Positions 36,853 to 43,336 of a stretch of DNA of 64,000 nt are shown here, piece by piece (position 1 is the stretch's first letter; every line of letters starts with the position of its first letter). This DNA is from Actinoallomurus bryophytorum (GTDB lineage: Bacteria; Actinomycetota; Actinomycetes; Streptosporangiales; Streptosporangiaceae). The position numbers and the translations under genes are program-made. The notes beneath the pieces were generated by a model. It did not search any database. It saw only the letters and a list, made by a program, of their open reading frames with translations, and was not told where the DNA came from. The stretch lies in contig NZ_VFOZ01000001.1 in NCBI RefSeq assembly GCF_006716425.1, positions 1 to 64,000 on the forward strand, in the 5' to 3' direction.

Positions 36853-37025
36853 GGTGCCTCCCGCCGTACCGGACGGCGCGCGACCGCGAGCCGCCACGTC
36901 GGCACGGCCGTCCGCCGGGACTCCTGCCTCTTTCGCCTCACAGCTCCCAGCTTAGAGCCCGCACCGACAGGGCGCGCGCCGCGAGCGGAGCGCAGTCCTG
37001 TCCGCCGGGGCTCTTGAACGCCTAC

Positions 37026-37377
37026 GGCCTGTCTCGGAACCGGCCTGTCTCGGAACCGGCCTGTCTCGGAACCGGCCCGTCTCGGAACCGGCCCGTCTCG
37101 GAACCGGCCCGTCTCGGAACCGGCCCGTCTCGGAACCGGCCTGTCTCGGAACCGGCCTGTCTCGGAACCGGCCTGTCTCGGAACCGGCCTGTCTCGGAAC
37201 CGGCCTGTCTCGGAACCGGCCTGTCTCGGAACCGGCCCGTCTCGGAACCGGCCCGTCTCGGAACCGGCCCGTCTCGGAACCGGCCCGTCTCGGAACCGGC
37301 CCGTCTCGGAACCGGCCCGTCTCGGAACCGGCCCGTCTCGGAACCGGCCCGTCTCGGAACCGGCCCGTCTCGGAACC
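37026..37377 (+). repeat. 22-copy 16-bp tandem array
   Basis: Unit GGCC[T/C]GTCTCGGAACC, 22 head-to-tail copies with no other mismatch. Position 5 is the only variable base: copies 1-3 T, 4-7 C, 8-13 T, 14-22 C. The blockwise variants show expansion by slippage or unequal exchange of whole blocks. There are no spacers, so it is not a CRISPR; 16 is not a multiple of three, so it is not selected as a protein repeat in one frame. Confidence 0.97.
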
Positions 37378-37494
37378 CGCCCGCCCGGGGGGCCATCCCA
37401 CTCTCATTGTCCAGCCGGATCGGCAGCGCGGGGAAGGAGAACGGGGTTCTGTGGATAACCCCGTGCGGCGCCACCGAAGCGGCGCCACACGGCA
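37378..37494 (+). repeat. Conserved core of element copy 1, with DnaA-box-like pair
   Basis: Order: CGCCCGGGGGG, CCATCCCACT (from 37393), TTGTCCAGC (37407-37415), a less conserved GC stretch, GGGGTTCTGTGGATAAC with TGTGGATAA at 37450-37458 (reverse complement TTATCCACA), then GCGGCGCCAC twice (37465 and 37479). The last part forms an imperfect stem (CCGTGCGGCGCC with GGCGCCACACGG) just downstream of nusB, where it could also end that transcript. TTATCCACA is the E. coli DnaA-box consensus; TTGTCCAGC is near the TTGTCCACA type used in actinomycetes. Confidence 0.8.
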
Positions 37495-37517
37495 CCCGCA
37501 CGACCTTGGGACAGACC

Positions 37518-37934
37518 TCAGAGCGACAGCGAGGGCTTCAGCTCGAGGAGGCGGGACAGCAGACCGTTGACGAACCGGGGCGACTCGTCGGTGGACAGCT
37601 CGGTGGCGAGGGCCACCGCCTCGCTGATCGCGACGCCGTCGGGTACCTCGTCCTCCCACAGGAGCTCGTAGGAGCCGAGCCGCAGGACGTTGCGGTCGAC
37701 GATGGGCATGCGGTCGAGGGTCCAGCCGACCGAGTAGGTCGCGATCAGCTCGTCGATGCGGTCGCGGTGTTCTGCCACGCCCGTGACGAGCCGGTCCACG
37801 AACGCCTGCTCGGCGAGTGGCTGGCCGGCGTCCGAGGCGCGCCGTACCAGCACGTCGGCCGGTGGTTCGCGCCGGATCTCCGCTTCGTACAGGACCTCGA
37901 GGGCCCGTTTTCGCGCCTTGCTGCGTGCCGACAC
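37518..37934 (-). CDS. nusB: Transcription antitermination factor NusB
   Basis: 138-residue all-helical RNA-binding protein that acts with NusE (S10) on boxA in rRNA antitermination. Seen: SARSKARKRALEVLYEAEIR, PIVDRNVLRLGSYELLW and VAISEAVALATELSTDESPRFVNGLL, the family's conserved blocks. GTG start at 37934, 2 nt after the efp stop, so coupled to efp. Confidence 0.96.
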   Translation of the reverse strand: MSARSKARKRALEVLYEAEIRREPPADVLVRRASDAGQPLAEQAFVDRLVTGVAEHRDRIDELIATYSVGWTLDRMPIVDRNVLRLGSYELLWEDEVPDGVAISEAVALATELSTDESPRFVNGLLSRLLELKPSLSL

Positions 37935-37936
37935 GG

Positions 37937-38494
37937 TCAGCCGCGGCCGAGATAGTCGCCCGAGCGAGTGTCGACCTTGATCTTCTCACCGGGGGTGATG
38001 AACAGCGGGACGTTGATCACGGCTCCGGTCTCGACCGTGGCCGGCTTGGTGCCGCCGGTCGAGCGGTCGCCCTGCAGGCCCGGCTCGGTCTCGGTCACCG
38101 CGAGCACGACGGCGGCCGGCAGCTCGATGTAGAGCGGGACGTCGTTGTTGAACGCGATCACCGCGTTCTGCTCGGGCAGCAGGAAGTTGGCCGCGTCGCC
38201 GACGGTGCCGCCGGGGATGTGCGGCTGGTCGTAGGTCTCGGTGTCCATGAAGACGAAGTCCTCGCCCTCGCGGTAGAGATACTGCATCTCCCGCTTGTCG
38301 ACGCTCGCCACCTCGACCTTGGTGCCGGCGTTGAAGGTCTTGTCGACCACCTTGCCGGACAGGATGTTCTTGAGCTTGGTGCGGACGAACGCGCCGCCCT
38401 TGCCAGGCTTGACGTGCTGGAACTCCTGGACGGTCCAGAGCTGGCCGTCGATGTTCAGCGTCATGCCGTTCTTGAGGTCGTTCGTCGTCGCCAC
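37937..38494 (-). CDS. efp: Elongation factor P
   Basis: 185-residue, three-domain translation factor that rescues ribosomes stalled at polyproline. Seen: [20 protein letters not shown], the tip loop [17 protein letters not shown] with a lysine in the position that is modified in many bacteria, and the C-terminal [29 protein letters not shown]. Proline-rich tails in this organism's FtsI, FtsL, FtsZ and Wag31 would be likely clients (inference). It lies between pepP and nusB. Confidence 0.97.
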
Positions 38495-38529
38495 TGCGTC
38501 TGTTCTCCTGCGTAGGCGGCCTGCCCCGT

Positions 38530-39597
38530 CTAGATGACGAGCAGTTCCTTGGTCGTCTTGGTGAGCAGCTCCACGCCGTCCGTACGGACGACCAGAGTGT
38601 CCTCGATGCGGACCCCGCCGCGGCCCGCGATGTAGACGCCGGGCTCGACGGTGATCGGAACTCGATCCGTCAGTTTACCGGTCTTGTCGTACCCCAGGAG
38701 CGGTGCCTCGTGGATCTCGAGGCCGACGCCGTGCCCGAGCCCGTGGGGGAACTCATCGGCGTGCCCCGCGGCGTCGATGACGTCGCGGGCCGCGGCGTCG
38801 ACGTCCTTCGTGGCGGCCTCCGGGCATGCCGCCTCGACGCCCGCGCGCTGCGCGGCCGCGACCAGGTCATAGATCTCCCGCAGCGCGTCCGAGGCGGGCC
38901 CCACCGCGACCGTACGGGTCATGTCGGCGTGGTAACCGCCGTACAGGGCCCCGAAGTCCATGGTCACGAAGTCGCCGGACTCGACGGCGCGGGTGCCGGG
39001 AACGTGGTGCGGGATCGCGCCGTTCGGGCCGCTGGCCACGATCGAGGAGAACGCGGGCCGCTCCGCGCCGAGGTCGACCATCGACCGCTCCAGCGCGATG
39101 GCGATCTCCCGCTCGGTGCGCCCGGGCCGGATGAAGGGCAGCACCGTGTCGAAGGCCCGGTCGGTGATCGCGCACGCCTCCCTGAGCAGGGCGATCTCCT
39201 CCTCATCCTTGACCATGCGCAGCTCCTCGACGGCGCGCCCCAGCGGGACCAGTTCGACGTTCTCCAGCTCGCTCGCGAGCGAGCGGTGTCCCTCCACGGT
39301 CAGGTCGTGCGCCTCGAACGCGAGCCGCCCGGTCGCACGGCCGCCCAGCGCGCCGGCCGTGTCGCGGTCGATCACGCATTCGAGCTCGGGGCAGACGCGC
39401 GCGGCGGTGCCGGCGTAGCGCCCGTCGGTGCCGAGTACGGCGGTGCCGTCGGCGCGGACGAGGAGCGCGGCGTTGGAGCTGGCCAGCCCGGACAGGTAGC
39501 GGACGTTGACCAGACGGGTGATGAGCGCGGCGTCGGCGCCCTGGCCGGCCACGGCTTCGGCCAGGCGCGCACGGCGCGTTTCGTGGATCCCGGGCAT
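38530..39597 (-). CDS. M24-family Xaa-Pro aminopeptidase
   Basis: 355 residues: creatinase-type N-domain (1-125) and pita-bread metallopeptidase domain. The five metal ligands are visible: Asp in [11 protein letters not shown], Asp in YHADMTRTV, His in [15 protein letters not shown], Glu in PITVEPGVY and Glu in [10 protein letters not shown]. It removes N-terminal residues preceding proline. The gene usually sits next to efp, as here (35 nt). The ATG at 39597 opens [15 protein letters not shown]; the open frame extends far upstream into the LLM gene but this is a shadow. Confidence 0.95.
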
Positions 39598-39618
39598 GGC
39601 CCGACTGTACGCCGCCGG

Positions 39619-39640
39619 CCCGCCGCGGAGCGGCGGCGGG
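39619..39640 (-). terminator. GC hairpin after the LLM oxidoreductase gene
   Basis: CCCGCCGC (39619-39626) with GCGGCGGG (39633-39640), 8-bp perfect stem, 6-nt loop, 14 nt beyond the stop at 39654 and upstream of the pepP ATG. No U-tract. Confidence 0.55.
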
Positions 39641-39653
39641 CACGACGGTGGGC

Positions 39654-40700
39654 TCAGACGGAGGCGGCCAGGTCCCGTACCTTCTCGATCAGCTTGACGC
39701 GTGCTTCGTGGTCGGCCGCGATCGGCGTGATGTTCAGCGTGGTGACACCCGACTCCTTCAGCGCCGCGAGCCGGTCGCGGACGAATCCCTCTGTGCCGAT
39801 GAGGGAGGTCTTCTGGAGGAGCTCGTACGGGACCTTCTCGGCGGCCTCCTGCTTCTTGCCGGCCAGGTAGAGGTCCTGGATCTCCTCGGCCTCCTTCTCG
39901 AAGCCGTAGCGCCGGGCGAGGTCGTTGTAGAAGTTCTTGCCCTTGGCGCCCATGCCGCCGACGTACAGCGCGGCCATGGGGCGGCCGAACTCCAGGAAGC
40001 CCTCGACGTCGTCGCCGATCGCCAGGTTCGCCTGCGCGACGACGTCCAGCTCGCCGAGCGAGGGGTCGCGCTTGGCCTTGCCCCTGGCCAGCGCATCGCC
40101 CCAGACGTCTCCCGCCTTCTCCGGGATGTAGAAGATCGGCTCCCAGCCCTCGGCCAGCTCGGCGGTCATCTCGACGTTCTTGGGGCCGAGCGAGGCGATG
40201 ATGATCGGGATGCGCTCGCGTACGGGGTGGTTGATCAGCTTGAGCGGCTTGCCGAGGCCCGTGCCCGCGTCGGCGGGGAGCGGGAGCTTGTAGTACTTGC
40301 CCTCGTAGGAGAGCCGCTCGCGGCGCCAGACCATGCGGCAGATCTCGATGATCTCGCGGGTGCGGCCGATGGGCGCGTGGTACGGCACGCCGTGCCAGCC
40401 CTCGATGACCTGCGGCCCGGACGCACCGATGCCGAGTACGAACCGGCCCTCGGAGACGTAGTCCAGGCCGGCGGCGGTCATCGCGGTCAGCGTCGGTGTC
40501 CGCGAGAAGATCTGGAGGATGCCCGAGGCGATCTGCAGGCGCTCCGTACGCGCGGCGATGAAGCCGAGCTGGCTCACGGCGTCGAAGCTGTAGGCCTCCG
40601 GCACGAACACGATGTCGAGCCCGGCCTTCTCGTAGTCGGCGAGCTCGTCGACGGTCTCCTTGAAGCCCCCGGCGTAGCTGAGGGACATTCCGATGCGCAT
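39654..40700 (-). CDS. LLM-class (luciferase-like) F420-dependent oxidoreductase
   Basis: 348-residue TIM-barrel flavin/F420 oxidoreductase. Seen: MRIGMSLSYAGGFKETVDEL start, LQIASGILQIFSRTPTLTAMTAAGLDYVS, GRFVLGIGASGPQVIEGWHG and IPIIIASLGPKNVEMTAELAEGW, the blocks of the F420-dependent LLM group in actinobacteria. Substrate unknown. It ends 56 nt before pepP and is not part of the usual aro/efp order. Confidence 0.9.
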   Translation of the reverse strand: MRIGMSLSYAGGFKETVDELADYEKAGLDIVFVPEAYSFDAVSQLGFIAARTERLQIASGILQIFSRTPTLTAMTAAGLDYVSEGRFVLGIGASGPQVIEGWHGVPYHAPIGRTREIIEICRMVWRRERLSYEGKYYKLPLPADAGTGLGKPLKLINHPVRERIPIIIASLGPKNVEMTAELAEGWEPIFYIPEKAGDVWGDALARGKAKRDPSLGELDVVAQANLAIGDDVEGFLEFGRPMAALYVGGMGAKGKNFYNDLARRYGFEKEAEEIQDLYLAGKKQEAAEKVPYELLQKTSLIGTEGFVRDRLAALKESGVTTLNITPIAADHEARVKLIEKVRDLAASV

Positions 40701-40757
40701 GCCGTGGCACTCCTTGCTTTCCGGCAGAAACCCGAATCAGGTTCAGTAATAGCGTAG

Positions 40758-41180
40758 TCAGGCCGGGCTGAACACCATGCACGTGCTCGTGCCGTGTGCG
40801 ACGAGGCGTCCCTGGTCGTCGGTGACGCGGCCCTCAGTGGTGGCGACCCGGCCGCCCAGGTGGATCGTGGTGCCCTCGCAGCGGAGCTTGACTCCGTCGA
40901 GCCGCACCGGGCGCACGAAGTTCACCTTGAGCTCGAGAGTGGTGTAGCTCGCCCCCTCGGGCAGCGCGGTGTGCACGGCGCAGCCCATCGCCGAGTCGAG
41001 CAGGGTGCTGCAGATGCCGCCGTGCAGCGTGCCGAGCGGATTGCCGAAGTCGGGACGGGTCTCGAGCGTGAACACCACCCGTCCGGGCTCGAAGGTCTCC
41101 AGCGCCATGTCGATCAGACTCGCGATGCCCGTCGTGCGCTGCTCCAGCAGCACCCTCAGCTGATCCGATCCGGCGGTCAT
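40758..41180 (-). CDS. PaaI-type hotdog thioesterase
   Basis: 140-residue acyl-CoA thioesterase of the hotdog fold. Seen: FGNPLGTLHGGICSTLLDSAMGCAV, where the HGG block bears the active site, and TTLELKVNFVRPVR. Substrate unknown. ATG 41180 has AGGAGG upstream. It is divergent from a tetR gene across 75 bp holding two operator-like palindromes, and is likely the regulator's target. Confidence 0.9.
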   Translation of the reverse strand: MTAGSDQLRVLLEQRTTGIASLIDMALETFEPGRVVFTLETRPDFGNPLGTLHGGICSTLLDSAMGCAVHTALPEGASYTTLELKVNFVRPVRLDGVKLRCEGTTIHLGGRVATTEGRVTDDQGRLVAHGTSTCMVFSPA

Positions 41181-41190
41181 GGGGCCTCCT

Positions 41191-41236
41191 CTATGACGCT
41201 TGGCATAATGAGAATCTTCTATGATGGGCGTCATAG
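41191..41236. promoter_or_regulatory. Paired TetR operator candidates between thioesterase and tetR
   Basis: Palindrome CTATGATGGGCGTCATAG (41219-41236; half-site CTATGAyG) and a second half-site CTATGACGC (41191-41199), 28 bp apart, whose reverse partner TGGCATAA is degenerate. CTATGACGC and GCGTCATAG (41228-41236) also form a perfect 9-bp inverted repeat. The site covers the space between both starts, fitting an autoregulated divergent switch. Confidence 0.75.
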
Positions 41237-41255
41237 TCAAGGTGGTGAATCTCAT

Positions 41256-41816
41256 ATGACCTCCGACGCCCGTGAGCGGATGGTGCGCAGCGCGGCCTAC
41301 CTGTTCCGCGAGCGAGGCTTCAGCGGCACGGCGTTCAGCGACGTGATCGCGCACAGCGGGGCGCCGCGCGGCTCGATCTACCACCACTTCCCGGGCGGAA
41401 AGGCACAGCTCGCCGAGGAGGCGGTGCGGTACGCCGGTGAGTTCCTCAGCGCGGGCGTACGCGCGGCGACCCGCGACGACGACCCGGTGGCCGCGGTGCG
41501 CGCGTTCCTGGGATGGTGGCGTCGCGTGCTGGTCGACAGCGACTTCAAGGCGGGCTGCCCGGTCGTCGCGGTGACCGTCGAGTCCCAGCTCAGCGGCGCC
41601 GCCGCGGACGCCTTCGGACGCTGGGGTGACGCCCTCGCCACCGGGCTCACCGCGGCCGGCGCGGCACCGGCGCGTGCCGGGCGGCTGGCGACGCTCATCG
41701 TCAGCGCCGTCGAGGGCGCGACCCTCCTGTGCCGGGCGAACCGCTCGCTGGACCCGCTGGACGACGTCACCGCCGAGCTGGAGGACCTGATCGAGGCCGC
41801 CTGCGGGACGGGCTGA
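41256..41816 (+). CDS. TetR/AcrR-family regulator
   Basis: 186 residues. N-terminal helix-turn-helix: ERMVRSAAYLFRERGFSGTA, then FSDVIAHSGAPRGSIYHHFPGGKAQL (about 27-52), typical TetR. The C-terminal ligand domain (RAFLGWWRRVLVDSDFKAGCPVVAV) resembles the LmrA/YxaF-like subgroup. Ligand unknown. Likely represses itself and the divergent thioesterase through the palindromes at 41191-41236. The nitroreductase gene follows on the same strand after about 25 nt and may share its transcript. Confidence 0.93.
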   Translation: MTSDARERMVRSAAYLFRERGFSGTAFSDVIAHSGAPRGSIYHHFPGGKAQLAEEAVRYAGEFLSAGVRAATRDDDPVAAVRAFLGWWRRVLVDSDFKAGCPVVAVTVESQLSGAAADAFGRWGDALATGLTAAGAAPARAGRLATLIVSAVEGATLLCRANRSLDPLDDVTAELEDLIEAACGTG

Positions 41817-41841
41817 TCACGGATTTGGGACGATGTGGCGT

Positions 41842-42471
41842 ATGACTCCCGATGAGTTGCTCACGACGACCCGGACCGTACGCAAGCGCCTCGACCTGAC
41901 CCGCCCGGTCCCGATCGAGCTGATCCGCGAGTGCCTGGAGATCGCCCTGCAGGCGCCGAGCGGCAGCAACCGGCAGGGCTGGCACTGGATCGTCGTCACC
42001 GACCCGGACGCACGCGCGAGCATCGCCGAGGTGTACCGGCGCGGCTGGGACGCGTACCACGGGTCGGGCGTGTCGGCGGGGACGCTGTTCGCCGACGACC
42101 CGGAGCGTGCGGCGGTCCAGCGCCGTGTCGGCGACAGCGCGGCGTACCTGGCCGAGCACATCGGGGAGGTCCCCGTGCTCGTCATCCCGTGCCTGCGGGT
42201 CGCGAAGCTGCCCGAGGGCAACCAGGCCGGCCTGTGGGGCAGCCTGCATCCGGCCGTGTGGAACTACATGCTCGCCGCCCGCGCACGCGGGCTCGGCACC
42301 GCCTGGACGTCGCTGCATCTCCCGCACGAACGCGAGGTCGCCGAGATCCTCGGCCTGCCGGAGGACGTACGCCAGGGCGCGCTCGTGCCCACGGCCTACT
42401 ACACAGGAGAGACCTTCCGCCCGGCCCCACGCCAGCCGCTAGAGGAGGTCCTCCACCTCGACCGCTGGTAA
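41842..42471 (+). CDS. Nitroreductase-family protein
   Basis: About 209-residue FMN-dependent oxidoreductase. Seen: TVRKRLDLTRPVPIELIRECLEIALQAPSGSNRQGWHW, where RxR and PSGSNRQ blocks bind FMN, GSLHPAVWNYMLAARARGLGTAW, and a C-terminal LVPTAYYTGE. Substrate unknown. ATG 41842 is preferred; ATG 41833, three codons earlier, is equally in frame. Co-oriented with tetR and possibly co-regulated. Confidence 0.9.
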   Translation: MTPDELLTTTRTVRKRLDLTRPVPIELIRECLEIALQAPSGSNRQGWHWIVVTDPDARASIAEVYRRGWDAYHGSGVSAGTLFADDPERAAVQRRVGDSAAYLAEHIGEVPVLVIPCLRVAKLPEGNQAGLWGSLHPAVWNYMLAARARGLGTAWTSLHLPHEREVAEILGLPEDVRQGALVPTAYYTGETFRPAPRQPLEEVLHLDRW

Positions 42472-42481
42472 GCCCGCCGGG

Positions 42482-42873
42482 GGCCCGTCTCAGAGCCTCG
42501 CGGCCCGCGTGGCGCCGCCGGCGTGGCGCCGCCGGTGTTATCCACAGAACCCCGCTCTACTTCCGTGCGCCGCCGGTCCCGCTGGACAATGAAAGTGGGA
42601 TGGCACCCCCGGGCGGGTGGGCTCCAGGCGGGTGGGCTCCAGGCGGGTGGGCTCCACGCGGGTGGGCTCCACGCGGATGAGCTCCACGCGGATGAGCTCC
42701 ACGCGGATGAGCTCCACGCGGACGGACCCTCCCGGGACCCCGAGCGGACGGACCCCGGGGACTCCGGGGCTCCGGGGCTCCGGGGCTCCGGGGCTCCGGG
42801 CGGACGGACCCCGAACAGGCTCCGGGCGGACTCCGGGGGCTCCGGGGAGGCTTCGCGACAGGCCGTAGGCGTT
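42482..42873 (-). repeat. Intergenic repeat element, copy 2 (complete extent)
   Basis: Inverted homologue of the element at 37017-37494. On the minus strand: terminus AACGCCTACGGCCTGTC (42873-42857, beginning at the aroQ stop), one diverged 16-bp unit, GC-rich arrays, then the core: CCATCCCACT (ending at 42603), TTGTCCAGC (42589-42581), TTATCCACA on the plus strand at 42538-42546, and GCGGCGCCAC twice (42532-42523 and 42518-42509). The two box-like sites span 52 bp, as in copy 1, and the GCGGCGCCAC pair is 14 bp apart in both. A further GGCCCGTCTC-like unit lies at 42482-42497. No gene is supported inside. Confidence 0.8.
42612..42716 (+). repeat. Seven-copy 15-bp tandem array in element copy 2
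   Basis: Units: GGCGGGTGGGCTCCA three times (from 42612), CGCGGGTGGGCTCCA once, CGCGGATGAGCTCCA three times, ending at 42716. Ordered variant blocks again indicate stepwise duplication. It is followed (about 42757-42810) by an 8-bp CTCCGGGG array and by two CGGACGGACCCCG copies. The unit is unrelated to the 16-bp unit of copy 1. Confidence 0.93.
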
Positions 42874-43336
42874 AGGACTCGGCGAGGAGTTCCGCGACGG
42901 CCTGGAGTGCGAGGACGTAGGAGAACGTGCCGAAGCCCGCGATCGTGCCGGAGGCCACGGCCGCGACGACGGACGTGTGGCGGAACTCCTCCCGCGCGGC
43001 GGGGTTGGAGATGTGCACCTCGATCAGGGGTGCCGTGCGCTGGGCGATGGCGTCGCGCAGGGCGTAGGAGTAGTGGGTGAACGCGGCCGGGTTCAGCACG
43101 ACGGGGATGTGGCCGTCCGCGGCCTCGTGCAGCCAGCCGACGAGCTCGGCCTCGTCGTCGGTCTGGCGGACCTCGGCGTGCAGGCCGAGGCGGCGCGCCG
43201 CGTCACGGCACAGCGCCGCCACGTCCTCGAACGTCGTGCTGCCGTACACGTCGGGCTCGCGGCTGCCCAGCCGCCCGAGGTTGGGTCCGTTGAGGACGAG
43301 CACCTCGCTCATCGGGTCCACGCTCCGCTCGGTCAT
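42872..43336 (-). CDS. aroQ: Type II 3-dehydroquinate dehydratase
   Basis: 154-residue dodecamer-forming enzyme of the shikimate pathway. Seen: [18 protein letters not shown] with the catalytic Tyr/Arg region, [35 protein letters not shown] and [15 protein letters not shown]. The substitutions from the usual NPGAYTH and HLSNVHAREEFR are mild. ATG 43336 overlaps the aroB stop (ATGA); ATG 43312 is the alternative start. The stop codon touches the terminus of the repeat element. Confidence 0.96.

Follow-up and report, generated by a model that had tools for sequence, protein, structure and literature searches.

A putative IS5-type MITE in Actinoallomurus bryophytorum carries a conserved core with a DnaA-box-like motif and mainly one-sided minisatellite arrays

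The window, i.e., the whole stretch of 64,000 nucleotides that was analyzed (G000:C1:1-64000, where G000 is the window's own genome), contains two copies of a short repeat element that are inverted relative to each other and lie 5.4 kb apart. Copy 1 spans 37026..37517 on the plus strand, from its 5′ to its 3′ terminal inverted repeat, next to nusB, whose frame ends at 37518. These bounds were set by means of the inverted repeats and by comparing the nusB sites of congeners, G004 for the left bound and G006 for the right. The features of this copy are on the plus strand unless stated otherwise. Its 5′ terminal inverted repeat (37026..37041) is divergent, reading GGCCTGTCTCGGAACC versus the family sequence GGCCTGTCTCGAAGTC, and a 16-bp tandem array of 22.4 copies (37025..37383; Tandem Repeats Finder and unit parsing) is built from a unit that starts with the element's own 5′ end sequence. 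The left box, CCCGCCCGGGGGG (37380..37392), adjoins the right edge of the arrays and is followed by box A, CCATCCCACTCTCATTGTCCAGC (37393..37415; pattern scan and conservation), by the middle box GGAAG at a near-fixed spacer position (37432..37436), and by box B, GGGGTTCTGTGGATAAC (37443..37459; pattern scan). Inside box B, the minus strand reads TTATCCACA (37450..37458), a DnaA-box sequence according to published consensus patterns (PMC4285127; PMC3583192). The right arm carries the motif GCGGCGCCAC twice, 14 bp apart (37465..37488), ahead of the 3′ terminal inverted repeat GACCTTGGGACAGACC (37502..37517; inverted repeats).

Copy 2 lies on the minus strand with approximate bounds (about 42482..42864), which were taken from inverted repeats and from an empty site in G003, where the aroQ-nitroreductase gene order is kept with no element between the two genes. 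On the same strand, box A (42581..42603) and box B (42537..42553) were located by pattern scan, and Tandem Repeats Finder identified a 15-bp array of 7.3 copies next to the core (42613..42721) and an 8-bp array of 5.6 copies (42755..42800). The DnaA-box sequence TTATCCACA is found here on the plus strand (42538..42546). At the site of copy 1, the element is absent from the 330 bases after nusB in all seven of the seven congeners compared. After nusB, G004 has a different insertion (L213), which is about 180 bp long, GC-rich, and repeat-like and has inverted ends.

The original prediction, made from the window sequence, had described motifs common to both copies, and these are present in the claimed order and on the claimed strands; the 16-bp array and the 15-bp plus 8-bp arrays that it reported were likewise recovered by Tandem Repeats Finder. 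Its shared ends do exist as inverted ends, but the proposed bounds were off and could be mended by means of the inverted repeats and empty sites. The first nine bases (AACGCCTAC) of the "17-bp terminus" assigned to copy 1 are host flank, not element, because the relative G004, which lacks the element, reads GGGCTCTTGAACGC-CTAC there. The outer bases of the same terminus in copy 2 are probably host flank as well.

The genome that was searched comprises 9,466,640 bases in three contigs and contains 60 copies of the core. A 110-bp core query returned at least 40 genome matches with E-values of 1e-22 or better. Box A, allowing up to three mismatches, was found at 65 genome places and box B, allowing up to two, at 64, versus none for either reversed pattern; therefore, the box matches are not due to chance. 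The copies are evenly spread along the 7.8-Mb contig (KS p 0.95, 53 copies), and they occur on both strands. Six cores of this genome lie outside the MITE set, including L054, which has a further TTATCCACA 89 bp away (C1:3408594 and 3408683). The gene pair around a copy is convergent in 35 of 57 cases, three of which have an inserted IS110 as the left gene, versus 8 of 70 other pairs at the same loci (p 4e-9); within the window, 4 of 51 gene pairs are convergent. These genes were called with a codon-usage script rather than a published tool. The prediction of a genome-wide, non-coding family is borne out in that the copies are dispersed and mostly intergenic, but coding genes and operons contain the core too (see below). 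Conserved ends and a conserved core flank a hypervariable part across the genome's copies, as had been proposed from the window pair.

The ends of the element point to a mobile origin. Terminal inverted repeats of the family type were recognized by script at the 5′ end in 45 of 60 copies, at the 3′ end in 48, and at both ends in 36. A typical copy starts with GGCCTGTCTCGAAGTCCTCGGTCTG and stops with CAACAGCATGACTTTGAGACAGGCC, forming an inverted repeat of about 16 bases, and the called ends adjoin CTAG-like bases. When the ends alone were used as queries (up to three mismatches; 5′ matches at 37 and 3′ matches at 32 of the 60 copies), the 25-base 5′ end was found at 39 places. At 37 of these, box B lies downstream and on the same strand; the other two are solitary left ends, the nearest 1.7 kb or so being free of cores. 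The 3′ end was found at 32 places, and box B lies upstream of it at every one. YTAR is present at both ends in 5 of the 36 copies with both ends called and at 12 of 45 single 5′ ends and 21 of 48 single 3′ ends. Either the target duplication is mostly worn or some end calls are off. Of 40 copies that have both a called 3′ end and a converging right-hand gene, 22 have the end no more than four bases from that gene's stop, probably because YTAR, which is scarce in this DNA, occurs mainly at stops.

The open frames in the window copies read as repeats, and these short elements apparently have no transposase gene of their own. A truncated element at C2:176439 starts with the same 16 bases as the family end, and its inner part matched 13 plasmid records, seven of which have an IS5 family transposase annotated where they match. 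Rhodococcus gordoniae has an intact relative, which encodes DUF4096 and DDE_Tnp_1 domains and carries related ends, GGCCGTGTTTCAAA, beside CTAG. An end search of the same genome revealed no intact IS5 partner. A looser search with the 16-base end gave 75 matches versus two for the control. In this hunt, 18 end regions with no known core were examined, at least four others being left out; one proved to be a truncated IS5-type left end, and the others were small palindromes, solo ends, or another repeat family. The arms of four small coreless palindromes (L173, L174, L175, and L176) resemble the MITE ends. The second repeat family (L168, L170, L172, L178, and L185) has the same starting ends, several of its members go on into TCCGTAGCGAGCGGCGTCC-like sequence, and it may represent a further MITE belonging to the same IS5 partner. 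A phage or plasmid origin was also considered and dropped: two patterns gave no exact matches in viral contigs, and searches of plasmids and phages with a dnaX-type core, not the window's core, gave short weak matches only. Judged by its sequence features, the carrier is probably a non-autonomous IS5-type MITE with a minisatellite, a kind of element already known. The lack of an internal transposase and the spread in trans suggested by the original prediction fit such a MITE.

The hypervariable part of the element consists of tandem arrays. Among 75 cores tested (65 of G000 and 10 of G003), 51 had such an array within 90 bp to the left of the core and 5 had one to the right, versus none in either of two control windows, in agreement with the proposal that the family creates local minisatellites. 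The periods of the left arrays are 13–19 bp, mostly 15–16, with one of 21. For 51 of 56 parsed arrays, the right edge falls between −6 and +7 bases of the left-box CCC; the edge scan started 10 bases left of CCC, and the other five arrays stopped at that limit. In G003, the units of left arrays likewise vary by site, with periods of 13, 16, 18, and 19 in six of ten. The original description of the two window arrays as unrelated was too strong. When up to six edits were allowed between neighbors, units could be read in 54 of 60 copies, and they are variants of one CCTGGAGCCCACCCG-like unit of 15–16 bp that makes up the left arm in this genome, each copy having expanded a different variant; the units of copy 1 agree with it at 10–11 of 15 positions.

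A gradient runs along the arrays. Of the 54 parsed, 48 have at least four units; in these, the first unit lies at a distance of 0.05 from the common core-proximal unit and the next ones at 0.13, 0.14, 0.18, and 0.22, with a rise to 0.27 at unit 8 and values of 0.23–0.24 at units 10–12; the low start is partly built in, since the reference is the common core-proximal unit itself. Distances between neighboring units in the same 48 arrays show no trend. We read the gradient as a probable sign of repeated tandem duplication seeded at a fixed edge, and it may in part arise because the proximal unit is inherited with the core. Two G003 loci with near-identical spacers (L114 and L118) differ in that one has a single left unit and the other an array, which suggests expansion or loss after duplication. 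G-quadruplex formation was rejected as a cause of the arrays, as 10 of 60 arms carry such motifs versus a shuffled mean of 13.6, i.e., not above shuffles.

To the right of this edge, the core has a strict geometry, in the order CCCGCCC-N-GGGGG, CCCACTTCCAKTGTC, GGAAG, and CTGTGGATAAC. Box A (23 bp), the spacer that holds GGAAG (27 bp), and box B (17 bp) are unchanged in length in all 60 copies. Mean pairwise difference among these is 3.2% in box A, 15.5% in the spacer, and 2.3% in box B, in copies that were found through the boxes themselves. Spacer positions 23–24 show subfamily-like alternatives. Two further results bear on the conservation of the boxes: none of the ends with a linked box B (37 at 5′ and 32 at 3′) has one beyond two mismatches, and the left box and CCCACT, which lie outside the search pattern, are still conserved in 30 aligned cross-genus cores. 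Box A does not fit a DnaA box. A phasing of box A against box B by five helical turns was considered and dropped, as the distances gave no clear fit.

The core extends beyond the genome of the window. An 85-position profile built from the 30 cores (E-value 0.001 or better) matched 42 of 297 family genomes in 6 of 68 genera, with at least 15 matches each in G000, G003, and G097 (the single g89 genome); the same search detected no core in three of eight members of the genus. More stringent patterns had a narrower reach. The exact two-box pattern was found in 11 of 297 family genomes and a longer pattern in 4 of 80 relatives, each of them a congener, and a pattern scan of named genomes identified 12 stretches in Actinoallomurus, Actinomadura, and one Streptosporangiaceae MAG. 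By this distribution, the core is apparently older and wider than its MITE carrier, and lineage-specific. Searches of the genome and its relatives, as the original prediction had proposed, gave 60 copies here and cores in 42 of the 297 family genomes.

On the opposite strand, box B contains TTATCCACA, which has been described as a high-affinity DnaA box in several bacteria; the corresponding high-affinity box of Streptomyces coelicolor and Mycobacterium tuberculosis is TTGTCCACA (PMC4285127). Most cores carry the former sequence, not the latter. For a Streptomyces oriC, the DnaA-box pattern has been given as [T/C][T/C][G/A]TCCAC[A/C] (PMC3583192). In G097, whose cores were found by profile, the first box fits this pattern in 14 of 14 cases and the second in 11 of 14, and the distance between the two is 30–31 bp, near three helical turns, in 14 of 14. 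Outside G097, the boxes fit in 14 of 16 cases in G003 and in 24 of 24 elsewhere, although 9 of the former and 4 of the latter were found with all nine bases fixed, and for the rest the test bears on the first three bases, because nearly all had TCCACA fixed. TTATCCACA occurs at 98 sites of the genome versus 5 for the reversed pattern, and 66 of the 98 lie inside cores. At the level of sequence, box B therefore reads as an actinomycete DnaA box at a conserved geometry.

The core is found in genes as well. In 16 genomes (16 distinct sequences), it lies in one and the same frame after the DnaX motif LELICAR or a similar one, and in six genomes it is in frame in a second gene, with (R)SGDKGG as the C-terminus of the product. 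These are the only two host genes seen with an in-frame core, and in both it is read in sense. In G097, 11 of the 14 cores analyzed stand between co-directional genes, 11 in sense and none in antisense (p 0.001). Sites include nuoL-nuoM, ureB-ureC, a response regulator and MtrB-like kinase pair, and two carboxylase subunits, among others; several of these neighbor identities are partial or under curated cut-offs. At the G097 loci L222–L236, where cores split operon partners, TTGACA or TTGACG follows soon after the second DnaA-type box in 6 of 14. Co-directional copies in G000 show no orientation rule (6 sense and 11 antisense, or 4 and 11 when those with IS110 neighbors are left out), and those in G003 (6 sense and 2 antisense) show no clear rule.

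In 5 of the 60 MITE copies (L035, L038, L041, L043, and L064), the left box is interrupted, each time at the same position, by an IS110-family element. The junction is ACCCGCC/CGGGGGTG in three copies, and two have the right-hand variant GGGGGAA. The IS110 copy at L043 matches PF01548 and PF02371. The non-coding left end of the insertion sequence holds GCCCGCCCG, which resembles the target, and this IS110 may use the MITE core as a specific target. Elements of the IS110 family have been reported to use bridge RNA (PMC11208160), and insertion of IS elements into dispersed repeats is known for REPs (PMC1525189).

Several explanations were weighed against these observations. The reading that we lean towards, with restrained confidence, is an IS5-type MITE that carries an older DnaA-box cis-element and whose left edge seeds minisatellites. 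A purely selfish MITE, in which the boxes would be cis-signals for transposition or its regulation and active sublineages would account for the spacer, with no host function, is the less probable yet serious competitor. DnaA acts as an assisting host factor in IS50 transposition. The inverted ends, the empty sites, the IS5 link, the even spread along the 7.8-Mb contig, and the subfamily-like alternatives in the spacer would all be expected of such an element. However, the boxes are near-invariant, yet the ends, which a transposase should need, vary more (found at 37 and 32 of 60 copies), and dnaX keeps the core in 16 genomes. A one-off duplication of one intergenic stretch, to which the two inverted copies 5.4 kb apart might have been ascribed, is refuted for practical purposes by the 60 genome copies and the cores in 42 of 297 family genomes; confinement of the core to the window pair, with none in relatives, which the original prediction had named as the contrary outcome, was not what was found.

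Two further readings were weighed. The core could act as RNA, i.e., as a transcribed sense element such as a terminator or a processing or attenuation site. The 11 sense and 0 antisense co-directional cores of G097 and the sense orientation in dnaX and the second gene speak for this, as does one small left-box hairpin pair with two-sided changes in 4 of 30 cores, but the same pair is broken in 5 of 30. Folding results also argue against it: three typed cores fold little better than shuffles (z −0.7 to −1.1), 79 spacers (16 of them from the 60 MITE copies) lie near shuffles with group means of −0.93 to +0.94, and a long-range stem shows no covariation and is broken in Actinomadura variants. In the predicted fold, 1 of 11 pairs changes on both sides. 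Rfam gives no match on the elements, and its two sub-threshold matches in region 36900-43000 (E up to 1) fall outside them, at 40004-40245. We regard an RNA role as improbable. A closing stem, TTGTCCA/TGGATAA, was tried and rejected, since its invariance in the first 30 cores was imposed by the search pattern and, in Actinomadura variants, it is broken uncompensated. A few G003 spacers do form hairpins (z −5.0 for L211, −2.5 for L210, and −2.5 for L122). It is highly implausible that the core began in dnaX as a signal for programmed −1 frameshifting (G GGG GGC, with a TAA after it in the −1 frame, to give a short gamma form) and was copied elsewhere from there. By eye, the genome's own dnaX has the heptamer in phase and the TAA of box B in the −1 frame; against this, non-coding copies conserve the same sequence, some dnaX copies lack an in-phase heptamer (also by eye), and TAA is part of box B everywhere.

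Under the favored reading of a DnaA-box cis-element on an IS5-type MITE, an older lineage-specific, cis-acting core would have been captured by the MITE, which would insert at YTAR-like sites, often at the stop codons of genes. DnaA would bind the core, with another protein binding box A at a fixed distance. Such binding may keep the boxes intact, whether for host transcription or replication control or because spread depends on the complex. DNA synthesis might be impeded by the GC-rich left box (CCCGCCC-N-GGGGG) or by the complex behind it, so that the 15–16 bp in front would be duplicated repeatedly to yield a site-specific minisatellite. Binding by DnaA, any benefit to the host, and the way in which the arrays grow are proposals drawn from sequence comparison.

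Parts of this system have counterparts elsewhere. BrickBuilt, a MITE of Porphyromonas gingivalis, is described as a spacer-less minisatellite with conserved flanks and inverted ends, with 19 copies in one strain that are always intergenic (PMC4596501). The window family is likewise a MITE with a minisatellite between conserved flanks and inverted ends; compared by description, BrickBuilt has one 23-nt unit, whereas the units here are 13–21 bp and differ by site. Unlike BrickBuilt, the window family also has an 85-bp core with a DnaA-box-like motif, which occurs in relatives' genes and operons. IS5-family MITEs appear similar in their ends and YTAR-like target, and the truncated IS5-type left end shares 16 bases with the family; the boxed core, the one-sided arrays, and the search result of no intact partner set the window family apart. 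As for REP elements (PMC1525189), a dispersed repeat serves as an IS110-type insertion site, but the target here is the MITE array/core junction rather than a REP palindrome. Rickettsia palindromic elements are short repeats in frame within unrelated protein genes (PMC10969869). The core shares this in-frame placement but is not a palindrome, and two host genes have been seen.

The loci datA and DARS are single loci outside oriC that each contain several DnaA boxes. Like them, the core is non-coding at most of its sites in this genome, places DnaA boxes outside oriC, and keeps a fixed spacing to another conserved box. In contrast to datA and DARS, it has one or two boxes per element at dozens of places. 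DnaA-titration and DnaA-cycling loci are treated as a topic elsewhere (PMC8682772; PMC10950094). In the titles and abstract openings listed from the open-licence literature, no description of this family, or of a conserved multi-box core with a DnaA-type box, was found. The apparently new part is accordingly the core, which is wider than its carrier, is kept in dnaX and operons, and has mainly one-sided arrays.

A bolder and rather doubtful proposal is that the core represents a new class of regulatory element, i.e., a DnaA-box module, lineage-specific and fixed in geometry, that sits in dnaX and in sense in the operons of one genus and that was spread in one genome by a MITE to some sixty sites holding two thirds of the genome's TTATCCACA and whose left edge generates polar minisatellites. 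As parts of this same doubtful proposal, the level or state of DnaA could be read or titrated at many genes at once, and the left edge could be a bacterial counterpart of hotspot-flanked minisatellites.

This group of actinomycetes is known for its natural products. If the core binds DnaA, a transposon would have rewired replication-initiator sites across the whole chromosome, with the same module in dnaX, which encodes a clamp-loader subunit of polymerase III, and between partner genes of operons, thereby linking replication control, gene expression, and mobile DNA. The arrays offer dozens of natural replicates of minisatellite birth and one-ended growth, which are hard to test in bacteria, and the array sites could serve as strain-typing loci.
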